This document shows positions 5,236 to 49,252 of a stretch of DNA of 49,252 nt, one piece after another (the first letter of the stretch is position 1; each line of letters starts with the position of its first letter). The stretch is from Candidatus Saccharimonadota bacterium. GTDB taxonomy: Bacteria; Patescibacteriota; Saccharimonadia; Saccharimonadales; Saccharimonadaceae. The position numbers and the translations under genes were made by a program. Under the pieces are notes generated by a model. That model was not told where the DNA came from, did not search any database, and saw only the letters and a program-made list of their open reading frames with translations. The stretch is taken from assembly GCA_009777625.1 (NCBI GenBank), contig WRLL01000006.1, positions 1-49,252 of the forward strand, in the 5' to 3' direction.

Positions 5236-5784
5236 TTTCTTCCCATGCGTCTTGTACGGTGGCTCCCATAAAAGCTTAACGACGCTATACACGAATCCCG
5301 CCACGTTAAACCGCTTGACGTATTGATGATCATAAACGGATTTAGACTTGGTTGACATGGGTGAAAGCAACTTGTCGATCGTCAGAAAACCTGGCGCGGG
5401 GAAACCAAACTCGGTCAATTGGCCAGTGCGATAATCGATCCTTCGCCAAATTTTGTCGCGGTCGGTATAAAGGAGCAACATTTCGCTGGCGTAGAAATCA
5501 GCCGCTCGGCGCATTCGCCGCGAGATGTAATCGTTAAAGAATTCCAAGTCGGGTTTGATCTCGACAATAGCACGATGATTCATGTTGCCGAAAAGAATAG
5601 ATAATTCCAAATCTGGCGTGTAATTGAAACCGCGGTGACTGATGCCTTTGTCGGGTTTGCGCCAGCGGTCGCGAAAGCCATTGTCGATCAAATGGCGCAA
5701 AACTTTTTCTTCCAAATTAGAGTCAAAATTGACTATTTGTCCCTCAATGATCGAGGTGTGTTTGTTGCCGCCATGGTATGCCAT
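5212..5784 (-). CDS. predicted PD-(D/E)XK-like nuclease-fold protein
   Basis: YTPDLELSILFG...RAIVEIKPDLEFF fits D-x(n)-E-x-K; converges on the upstream gene with a 24-bp overlap. Confidence 0.5.
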   Translation of the reverse strand: MAYHGGNKHTSIIEGQIVNFDSNLEEKVLRHLIDNGFRDRWRKPDKGISHRGFNYTPDLELSILFGNMNHRAIVEIKPDLEFFNDYISRRMRRAADFYASEMLLLYTDRDKIWRRIDYRTGQLTEFGFPAPGFLTIDKLLSPMSTKSKSVYDHQYVKRFNVAGFVYSVVKLLWEPPYKTHGKKSLRRRKR

Positions 5785-6033
5785 ATTCCTATGATAGCAT
5801 TGAAATAGTCAAAGTTGTTGACAATGTTAAACATCATCGGGTCACATCGTCCGGTGTGATTTCGCTGTTCGAAGGGAAGTATCATGTCAGTACTTAGACG
5901 TACGATGGCGGTGTTTACCGTTGTGATGATGGCGTTGAGCATGGAAGCTCCGCCCACGGGTTCACCCGAATCAGTTATTATTTTCAATGTTTGCGTTGTT
6001 CTAAAATTATGTATGATAAGAAAAGCAGCAAAG

Positions 6034-46307: not shown

Positions 46308-46336
46308 TTGTCAATTTACCAATTGTATGGTAATAT
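46308..46336 (+). promoter_or_regulatory. Promoter with internal operator for the radical SAM leader
   Basis: TTGTCA 46308-46313, 17-bp spacer, TAATAT 46331-46336; IR TTACCA(N6)TGGTAA at 46316-46333. Confidence 0.7.
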
Positions 46337-46342
46337 CAAGTT

Positions 46343-46467
46343 GCTAAACCTATAACAACTAGGCAAGCCAAACTAGGCTTTCAGTCCGATAATGCGATCA
46401 TATGCACCATCGAAGGCTGAAAGCTCTAGTTGGTAGGTTTAGCGACTAGCATATGGTCGCTTTTTTG
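46343..46467 (+). ncRNA. Candidate cis-regulatory attenuator leader RNA (L1)
   Basis: P1 GCTAAACCTA/TAGGTTTAGC; hairpin AACTAGgCTTTCAG/CTGAAAGctCTAGTT; terminator AGCGAC-N9-GTCGCTTTTTT; loop GCGATCATATGC complementary to GCATATGGTCGC. Confidence 0.7.
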
Positions 46468-46525: not shown

Positions 46526-47692
46526 ATGAGCAGAAATCTTATTAAAGATAACGGGAGCTTTATCCAGCTTGCAGATCAAATGCGATGGGAGTCGCTTTCG
46601 CCTGCAGCTGCGGAATTAGTTGAATTAGAGAAAGAAATCCCTGTAAGAATAGAAGAAGATCGCGGCTTGCGAGCCAAAATTACTGACAAGTGCGGAATGA
46701 CATGCACATTTTGCCATAACGAGGGGACGCCTGTGGCAGTGGCGCTAAGAGGCATTACTACTCAGCGTAGCTCTGTTTTTTCTGGGATTAATGGAGTTGA
46801 CTTTATGCCAGGGCAGATGCAGCCTGATGAATCATTCAGATACGCATTGTCATCAATGAGACGAAGTATTGGCTCAGATGAACTACATTTTACTGGTGGT
46901 GAGCCAAGCTTACATAGAGGTATTGCTGAATTGACTGAGCAGGCTGTGTCGCTAGGCTATCAAGTCAAAATGACGTCGAATGGTGAAAATCCGGGTGGGA
47001 TAGGAAGGGCGGTGGAGGCAGGAGTCTCAAAGATTAATTTTAGTGTTTTTGGTACAACCCCAGAGGAACTAGCCCAAGTTCAGGCGGAAAAATATCGTAA
47101 CGAGCGCCTAGCGGCGCATAAAATAATACGACTAAAAGAATCTATGAAAATAGCCTTAGATTCTGGAGTTAAAGCTGGTGCGAATATTGTCATGAGAGAT
47201 ATTGGTGATGCAGAAAGGGCTATGCGTATTCTATTCGAATATGATCCGCGTCTTCAGATGCGTATTCTGCACGATCTTGATAAAGGGCTTGAATCATACA
47301 AGGCGGCTTATGAATTGTTGGCAACACTCGGTGCAAAGCCAGAAGAACTATTAATAGAAGCCGGTGTTTCTAATGTGGGCGTAAAGTATAGACTGCCAGA
47401 CGGTAGGGTAATCCAATTTAAACAATTCAAACAAACATTTCTACCAGACACATGCAGAGGCTGCTCGATAAAAAGCGATGGCGGTTGTTACGAATCTTTT
47501 TATGGGCCGCGTTTGTATGTTGATGATTCTGGGCAATATAAAGTTGGCGTATGTATCCAGAGGATGGATTTAACCGAAGACCTAGAGGGATTCTGTGAAG
47601 GTGCAATTCCTAAAGAGATTGTCAGGCTCAGAAGAGAGGAGTATGAGAGCCTAAGAGAAGAATTTGGAGACCGAATTAAGGATAGGCCATGA
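46526..47692 (+). CDS. radical SAM protein (MoaA-like, with extra C-terminal Cys cluster)
   Basis: KCGMTCTFCHNEG (CxxxCxxC), FTGGEPSLH, C-terminal CRGCSIKSDGGCYE...VGVCIQR; start moved from TTG 46430, which lies in the leader. Confidence 0.82.
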   Translation: MSRNLIKDNGSFIQLADQMRWESLSPAAAELVELEKEIPVRIEEDRGLRAKITDKCGMTCTFCHNEGTPVAVALRGITTQRSSVFSGINGVDFMPGQMQPDESFRYALSSMRRSIGSDELHFTGGEPSLHRGIAELTEQAVSLGYQVKMTSNGENPGGIGRAVEAGVSKINFSVFGTTPEELAQVQAEKYRNERLAAHKIIRLKESMKIALDSGVKAGANIVMRDIGDAERAMRILFEYDPRLQMRILHDLDKGLESYKAAYELLATLGAKPEELLIEAGVSNVGVKYRLPDGRVIQFKQFKQTFLPDTCRGCSIKSDGGCYESFYGPRLYVDDSGQYKVGVCIQRMDLTEDLEGFCEGAIPKEIVRLRREEYESLREEFGDRIKDRP

Positions 47693-48234
47693 ATGATGCT
47701 ATAGAGAACGAAGCGAAGATACTAAATATTGGCCCAGAAGAAATAAGGGGCAAATTAATACGACTGGGTGCGCAAAAAGTTGGAGAATTTAACTTCAGGC
47801 GACACGTTTTCGATGCTATCCCAAAACGGGAAGGTCGATGGCTTAGGCTAAGGACTGATGGTCAACGCACAACTATAACGGCAAAAGAGATCTCTCATGA
47901 TGATGTGGATGGTACAAGCGAATGGGAAGTTGAGGTGTCTGATTTTGAGGACACTTTGAAAATTTTACAAAAAATTGGCTTGGAGAGTCGAGGCTATCAA
48001 GAGAACAGGCGAGAGCTGTACAAGTTAAACGATGTTGAGATCTCAATAGATTTCTGGCCACGATTAAAACCGTATATTGAAATTGAAGCCAAGACTCCAG
48101 AACAAGTGTATGAGACCGCTCGGCAACTGGGATTTAATGCTGGCCAGCTGACTGGGAAAAACACAAAGAAACTGTATGCTGAATCAGGAATTGATCTGGA
48201 CAAAGTTGCTGAACTTAATTTTGATGGTCTGTAG
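47689..48234 (+). CDS. CYTH-domain (triphosphate tunnel) protein
   Basis: IENEAKILNI (ExExK), LRLRTDGQRTTITAKE, SEWEVEVSDFE, YIEIEAKTPEQVYE; overlaps previous stop. Confidence 0.8.
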   Translation: MNDAIENEAKILNIGPEEIRGKLIRLGAQKVGEFNFRRHVFDAIPKREGRWLRLRTDGQRTTITAKEISHDDVDGTSEWEVEVSDFEDTLKILQKIGLESRGYQENRRELYKLNDVEISIDFWPRLKPYIEIEAKTPEQVYETARQLGFNAGQLTGKNTKKLYAESGIDLDKVAELNFDGL

Positions 48235-48798
48235 ATGAAAATAGACAGACCATCGTTTATGATCACCGGTGCGAGTGCGTCTGGAAAGACGACTCTTGGC
48301 AATATGGCGTTAAATAATGGATGGCGATGTGCGTCTGTGCACTTGACGCGCCCCAAGCGTCCAGATGAGATAGAAGGCGTGCACGGTGTTTTTCTTACGG
48401 AAGAACAATTTGTTGCTAATTTTGCACAAGGCGCCTATATCGAAACCAGTCTCCAGGATACATTATTGCAGCCTATCGGATATTATTATGGGACACCTAA
48501 ATCAATGCTGTATGATTTACGCCAGGACGGCGTATGTGCGATACCTACCTGTGTCAAAATGGCTAGGAAGGTATTTGAAATAATAGATGAAGTCGTATGG
48601 GTCCATTTAATATGTAGTGATGTGGACAGGCGCGCGAGATTAGTCGCACGCAATATCACTGGTGATGAAATTGAAGCTAGAATGACGATGGGTGAGTCTA
48701 GTGATTCTCCTCCGGGAGATGCGACTATTTATAGTACGTCTGATCTATCTGCCGATGATATTCTGCGTGATATTCGAGCCAATTGCGTAAGTGCATAA
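48235..48798 (+). CDS. guanylate-kinase-like P-loop kinase
   Basis: ITGASASGKTTLGNMAL, HLTRPKRPDEIEGVHGVFLTEEQFVANFAQGAYIE, YYYGTPKSMLYDLRQDGVCAI. Confidence 0.75.
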   Translation: MKIDRPSFMITGASASGKTTLGNMALNNGWRCASVHLTRPKRPDEIEGVHGVFLTEEQFVANFAQGAYIETSLQDTLLQPIGYYYGTPKSMLYDLRQDGVCAIPTCVKMARKVFEIIDEVVWVHLICSDVDRRARLVARNITGDEIEARMTMGESSDSPPGDATIYSTSDLSADDILRDIRANCVSA

Positions 48799-48839: not shown

Positions 48840-48931
48840 TATAATAAGAAAGCTAAACCTACTAAACGGAGTGTTATATTTCTGTAATATCGTGCATGTA
48901 GCTTTAGCGACTAGAACTAGTCGCTTTTCTT
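48840..48931 (+). ncRNA. Second related leader RNA (L2) ending in a terminator
   Basis: TATAAT 48840-48845; GCTAAAcCTAC/GTAGcTTTAGC; perfect hairpin AGCGACTAGAACTAGTCGCTTTTCTTG. Confidence 0.65.
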
Positions 48932-48976
48932 GTTTTGACCAAGTAGCGACCTAACGGGTGGCGAAAGGGAGATACT

Positions 48977-49252
48977 ATGAGTGCAGATATACCAAGGCAG
49001 GCGTTGCCGTTTGAGTTAGATGGTGCCAGGAGCAAAATGTCTGGATATACCGAGAAAATTGGCGAACTTGCAAGCGAATTAGGTAGGGCTATGAGAACGA
49101 CTTCAGAAACTTGGCATGATAATGTACAGGCTGATGCTGTAGTCGCGGACTCAAGTGTAGTAGCAAGCTCCGCAGAATTTACAGCTGACCGTCTTGCTGG
49201 TTCAATAGAGGCCTCTGATTCTCTGGATGGTGTCGTGGGTGTCGGAAGTATT
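48977..49252 (+). CDS. hypothetical protein, N-terminal part (runs off right edge; absent from ORF track)
   Basis: SD-like aaagggaga then ATG; MSADIPRQALPFELDGARSKMSGYTEKIGELASELGRAMRTT… open for 92 codons. Confidence 0.65.
   Translation, partial: MSADIPRQALPFELDGARSKMSGYTEKIGELASELGRAMRTTSETWHDNVQADAVVADSSVVASSAEFTADRLAGSIEASDSLDGVVGVGSI

Follow-up and report, generated by a model that had tools for sequence, protein, structure and literature searches.

The window analyzed here, the whole 49,252-nucleotide (nt) contig WRLL01000006.1 of a Candidatus Saccharimonadota bacterium (assembly GCA_009777625.1), raises the question of what a 125-nt leader (46343-46467) does in front of a radical SAM-CYTH-kinase operon and whether it is peculiar to that operon. 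A sequence-only reading had proposed a switchable attenuator with a built-in antiterminator; every sequence it named was found where it had placed it. From comparison of homologous sequences, we consider it quite likely that the leader represents a new class of RNA and works as a transcription attenuator, which would choose between an intrinsic terminator and a pseudoknotted antiterminator. Its parts are as follows.

46308-46336, + strand: sigma-70-type promoter (TTGTCA at 46308-46313, 17-nt spacer, TG-extended -10 box TAATAT at 46331-46336), from a promoter scan
46343-46352, + strand: 5' strand of stem P1, GCTAAACCTA, from the fold and family covariation; extended by CAACTAG at 46356-46362
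46366-46379, + strand: hairpin P2 (AGCC/GGCT), from the fold; variable, absent from some family members
46378-46384, + strand: 5' strand of stem P3, CTTTCAG, from the fold; partner at 46417-46423
46393-46406, + strand: mini-hairpin P4, UGC-GAUCAUAU-GCA, carrying the antiterminator strand, from a sequence check and P4 folding in the family
46394-46405, + strand: antiterminator strand GCGATCATATGC, from pairing and covariation; complementarity runs on 5' into an A-rich run
46417-46423, + strand: 3' strand of P3, CTGAAAG, from the fold and family pairing
46434-46443, + strand: 3' strand of P1, TAGGTTTAGC, with CTAGTTG (46426-46432) just before it; AGC is common to P1 and the terminator
46441-46466, + strand: intrinsic terminator AGCGACTA-GCATA-TGGTCGCT plus T-tract, from a terminator scan (hairpin 46441-46461, then T6)
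46449-46460, + strand: antiterminator target GCATATGGTCGC, i.e., the terminator loop plus 3' arm, from pairing and covariation

The promoter scan recovered the TTGTCA-17-TAATAT read before, and transcription would start at G46343. The proposed pairing of the leader ends, GCTAAACCTA with TAGGTTTAGC, which shares bases with the terminator stem, was also exact, while the complementarity of GCGATCATATGC to GCATATGGTCGC, described as 12 pairs with one G-U, turned out to extend over 19 nt, counting mismatches and the U-tract, and to be kept in homologues. Both copies of the direct repeat ACTAGGC were confirmed (46358-46364 and 46372-46378), but the role of alternative pairing partner suggested for it was rejected for want of support: the first copy extends P1, the second lies in P2, and nothing points to a part in the switch. 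The leader folded at -49.7 kcal/mol versus -27.4 kcal/mol for dinucleotide shuffles (z, -6.7), and a full 12-nt partner for the terminator 12-mer arose in 5 of 20,000 shuffled leaders. No Rfam family matched it, in line with the earlier failure to recognize a known riboswitch class: Rfam 15 gave no match in the window at gathering thresholds, the best hit of a permissive search with the leader was a miRNA model at 18 bits versus the 110 needed, and nine homologous loci yielded only tRNA and the DUF3800-XI RNA, both away from the leader.

Relatives of the leader were then collected. The second founding member belongs to another genus and lies upstream of an unrelated secreted protein; its loop and terminator (GCGACCATATGC/GCATGTGGTCGC) match each other, and its P1 (GCTAAACATTTT/AAAATGTTTAGC) differs from that of the window yet is complementary. 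Its contig, which has the same sequence as CANBEI010000007.1, is labelled uncultured Candidatus Saccharibacteria. Scanning genome contigs for the terminator pattern gave one true member, L016 (identical in sequence to G373), and a Flavobacteriaceae match that was rejected as chance, being a terminator without the P1/P4 context. A covariance model, R1, was built from the window leader and this second member; it included P1, the terminator, and part of P3, the antiterminator pairing being left out. Its search of 394 genomes of the family found dozens of members, 48 of which were used to build a second model, R2. Applied to 295 sampled genomes of the class, R2 found more members, all within the same family; applied to 287 sampled genomes of the phylum, it found no convincing member outside the family and one doubtful match only. 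With weak and divergent matches removed, at least 83 members remain, spread over 54 genomes from 14 genera of a single Saccharibacteria family; these counts are lower bounds because a limited number of candidates was scored per genome. Dropped from them were the weak R1 matches L098, L100 to L102, and L104 to L107, which have no antiterminator pairing, the doubtful L161 and L166 (G611, of another family; E value, 0.005), and the divergent L158, L160, and L162 of genome G029. The last three show a near-palindromic pairing of 24 to 27 nt (ATGCGTACATGTACGCAT...) and are perhaps a sub-class. Phage and plasmid records gave no match by blastn, and viral contigs were scanned with one narrow pattern only.

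Covariation was assessed on the 48 members aligned with R1, that is, with a model ignorant of the antiterminator pairs. Of the alignment cells, 99.1% were paired in P1 and 99.4% in the antiterminator helix. Both sides had changed in 11 of 19 pairs and, P1 included, in 93 cells. None of 500 shuffles reached any of five covariation measures, and sliding the partner columns by 1 to 3 positions lowered pairing to 28 to 40%. Wobbles in the antiterminator helix comprised 66 G-U versus 2 A-C, which argues that selection acts on the transcribed RNA. All 12 antiterminator pairs were present in 70 of 82 members, and at least 11 in 80. In 19 genomes with several copies, the loop was fully complementary to the terminator of its own copy in 90% of cases, compared with 32% for the terminator of another copy; the pairing thus evolves in cis, within each copy. 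Even noncanonical terminators have fitting loops, e.g., GCAGCCACATGC/GCGTGTGGTTGC and GTGGTCATGTGC/GTACGTGGCCAC. By sequence comparison, then, the leaders conserve an alternative pairing with which the terminator should be incompatible. Such covariation between loop and terminator in homologues had been named in advance as the check on the attenuator reading, which is well supported because the covariation is strong and no Rfam family matches.

The members share a common anatomy. A TG-extended -10 box (TGNTANNNT) was found in 59 of 82 members, and the 5' end of P1 (median length, 18 positions) mostly lies 4 to 7 nt past the -10 box, i.e., at the transcription start. The terminator begins, with its 5' arm, within the 3' strand of P1 and ends a median of 39.5 nt before the start codon. 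Since promoter, U-tract, and start codon are placed around it, the element is an mRNA leader, and the order of promoter, leader, and intrinsic terminator before a coding region is that of an attenuator. P3 is unrelated in sequence between members, yet it pairs in 81 of 82, with a pairing score of 24.8 within members versus 11.7 across them. Inside its loop stands P4, typically UGCG-RCYAUNUR-CGCA; in 94% of members its window folded more stably than shuffled sequences. A stretch of 12 to 20 nt comprising the 5' arm and loop of P4, in many members together with the A-rich run upstream, is complementary to the loop and 3' arm of the terminator and, in many cases, to the U-tract. P4, the terminator, and the pairing between them account for the conserved positions; P1, P2, and P3 vary freely. 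In 26 of 82 members, versus 4.5 expected, the segment from the U-tract to the start codon holds a further sequence strongly complementary to the terminator 3' arm; it is often GCGACC adjoining the Shine-Dalgarno sequence (e.g., L057 and L063) and may be a third competitor for the terminator strand. In L096 both sides of this complement have changed together (GCAACCA/TGGTTGC).

We then asked which form the antiterminator would take. On average, a nested antiterminator, which must break P1 and P3, was less stable than the closed fold by 10.7 kcal/mol, while a pseudoknot that keeps P1 and P3 and replaces only P4 and the terminator was 7.6 kcal/mol better before any pseudoknot penalty. As the nested pairing loses by about 11 kcal/mol and P1 and P3 themselves covary, a pseudoknot retaining both stems is the most likely form. 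The built-in antiterminator of the sequence-only reading stands, its form being changed from a nested alternative fold to what the energies favor, a probable pseudoknot. Transcription would begin at the first base of P1, and the nascent RNA would fold P3 and P4, the latter sequestering the antiterminator strand; P1 would close next, and the terminator would be transcribed after it. If the terminator loop and 3' arm paired with their own 5' arm, transcription would terminate and an RNA of about 125 nt would be released; if their partner was instead the antiterminator strand, located in the P3 loop, a pseudoknot would form with P1 and P3 intact, and read-through would turn the downstream genes on. 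Since the closed and pseudoknotted states are nearly equal in computed energy, even a weak input might be enough to decide between them. We infer from these data that, in the cell, formation of the terminator precludes the antiterminator and vice versa, that the antiterminator is pseudoknotted and turns genes on, and that some input regulates it.

Several observations weigh against this model. The energy of the pseudoknot was obtained by summation, with a penalty that had to be assumed, and at +9 kcal/mol only 30% of members favor the pseudoknot. The closed state should slightly weaken the terminator, because P1 overlaps it by 3 nt. The members found with R2 were aligned with a model that includes the antiterminator pairing. 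A second copy in the window and L093 are without an antiterminator or a strong terminator hairpin. Finally, there is no conserved unpaired core that would suggest a ligand, and sequence therefore does not establish switchability.

The genes headed by the leader were examined next. Most of the first genes have no assigned function. Among the others are DNA methyltransferases of the EcoRI type (three), N6/N4 (three), C5 (two), and MmeI type, an SRA-domain protein, and six Uzume-A-like proteins of about 297 amino acids (L057, L063, L064, L067, L068, and L075). A hydrophobic segment near the N terminus was predicted in 40% of the leader genes versus 17% of the other open reading frames (ORFs) in the same loci, and a same-sized background set held mostly housekeeping families among the matches listed, the comparison being descriptive. 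An N-terminal motif resembling MPSFEEHM recurs in the proteins under the leaders of L084, L130, L131, L136, L140, L141, L142, and L149, and at L135 a leader copy heading a DNA methyltransferase-like gene is followed, some 2.7 kb further on, by a DUF3800-XI RNA (5761-5808). A family-wide regulon, in which a pseudoknot module before anti-phage and surface genes would sense infection or host contact and release the genes together, is a speculative idea that we rate as rather improbable.

In the window, the following features lie downstream of the leader.

46526-47692, + strand: radical SAM protein, viperin-like, first gene under the leader (PADLOC pVip, 1.6e-11)
47689-48234, + strand: CYTH-domain protein
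48235-48798, + strand: guanylate-kinase-like P-loop kinase
48852-48932, + strand: reduced leader, P1 and terminator kept, P4 and antiterminator strand absent; precedes an ORF from 48977

The three genes (46526-48798) may form a viperin-like antiviral nucleotide operon; the match of the radical SAM protein to the NCBIfam viperin model is below its cutoff. A first protein scan of genome contigs detected no relative of this protein, and relatives were rare in the family sample (3 of 294). Those in G142, G120, and G074 are leaderless or nearly so, starting at, or up to about 15 nt from, a -10-like box. The leader had been placed correctly before the operon, but it is not specific for it, since the radical SAM relatives lack it while it heads dozens of unrelated genes; a tie to the radical SAM gene was thus rejected. 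In G142, the radical SAM and CYTH genes are followed by a gene resembling, by eye, a nucleoside deoxyribosyltransferase; in G120, the radical SAM gene is broken by frame changes. The reduced copy, missed in the earlier reading, has a P1 start (GCTAAACCTA) and a terminator start (TTTAGCGACTAG) identical to those of the first leader. Its ORF (48977-49252) is cut off by the contig end, and a relative sharing, by eye, an ETWHDN motif follows the CYTH gene in G120 (L012, 4177-4509, minus strand).

As for what might tip the choice, the best-surviving proposal is that a protein, an RNA, or the state of the polymerase (a NusG/NusA paralogue, pausing, nucleoside triphosphate level, or a phage factor) acts on the leader as a stress or infection antitermination module for accessory genes, which is plausible if somewhat short of an even chance. 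The varied targets, rich in DNA methyltransferases, Uzume-A-like nucleases, viperin-like radical SAM, and membrane proteins, and the centering of conservation on P4 and the terminator speak for it, whereas no candidate factor is in hand, no search for a NusG-family protein having been made, and the enrichment comes from one background set (78 neighboring genes; 25 families among the matches listed). Possible, though we doubt it, is that the attenuator is simply leaky and not regulated, holding the expression of costly accessory genes at a low or noisy level (bet-hedging): the missing sensor core, the balanced states, and the antiterminator-less copy in the same window would fit, but the upkeep of a 12- to 20-nt alternative pairing in each copy exceeds what a leaky terminator needs. 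Unlikely is a ligand-binding riboswitch, in which a metabolite stabilizing the pseudoknot or P4 would set termination, as in the fluoride and ZTP riboswitches. The logic of a pseudoknot set against a terminator and the near balance of states are alike, but P1, P2, and P3 are free to vary, conservation is accounted for without a ligand-binding core, and the downstream genes have no common pathway, whereas riboswitch targets should be metabolically coherent. Ribosome-mediated attenuation through a leader peptide was rejected as very improbable: an ATG lies in P4 in 51 of 82 members, sometimes behind an A/G-rich stretch, but 31 have none, the frames end at scattered points, some past the terminator, and no short ORF overlapping the switch is conserved. 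A DNA-level element (recombination site or transposon end) whose inverted repeats merely resemble RNA stems, suggested by copies adjoining variable accessory genes, often on short contigs, is if anything more improbable still and was rejected on the G-U/A-C asymmetry, the fixed site between promoter and start codon also opposing it. Chance complementarity in one leader is refuted beyond reasonable doubt by 82 further members and the 500 failed shuffles.

The attenuator that we favor resembles known devices in part. Trp-type leader-peptide attenuators form mutually exclusive terminators and antiterminators in an mRNA leader, and the leader shares this alternative pairing; unlike them, it has no conserved leader peptide, and its antiterminator strand lies within a closed multi-stem domain. 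In the crcB fluoride riboswitch, a pseudoknot is set against a terminator, and the pseudoknotted state gives read-through (PMC11077080), as proposed here. The leader differs from crcB in having no Rfam match or conserved ligand core, in targets other than fluoride genes, and in the 12- to 20-nt hairpin-loop strand, which spans the loop and 3' arm of the terminator and in many cases its U-tract as well. Internal strand displacement, which decides between RNA domain and terminator in the ZTP (pfl) riboswitch (PMC10085676), would also make the choice in the leader, which has another fold, unrelated targets, and no sequence or Rfam match to ZTP. For such a pseudoknot-controlled terminator, the P1 and antiterminator helices covary, and the energies, as estimates, are near balance. 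In LoaP/RfaH-type antitermination, read-through of diverse accessory operons is likewise reported to be controlled from leader RNA and to need a NusG-family protein (PMC12691694); the leader differs in encoding the antiterminator strand in the RNA itself.

In the open-access literature we found neither a regulatory RNA class reported as specific to Saccharibacteria nor any account of an RNA like this one. Compared at the sequence level, the device is of a known kind, an attenuator with an antiterminator, and what is new is this family-restricted RNA class. The class is real, and the antiterminator built into it covaries and is probably pseudoknotted; the anatomy, its conservation, the RNA-strand-specific pairing, the covariation of P1 and P3, and the per-copy evolution are all evident in the alignments. 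It is numerous, and its covariation is unusually clean. As modeled, it would be a concrete switch open to direct test, and it would add a new example of a pseudoknot that reads the loop, 3' arm, and U-tract of a terminator. Saccharibacteria are ultrasmall, parasitic, epibiotic bacteria, and the leader appears to control the variable set of genes that these parasites use in their encounters with phages and hosts.
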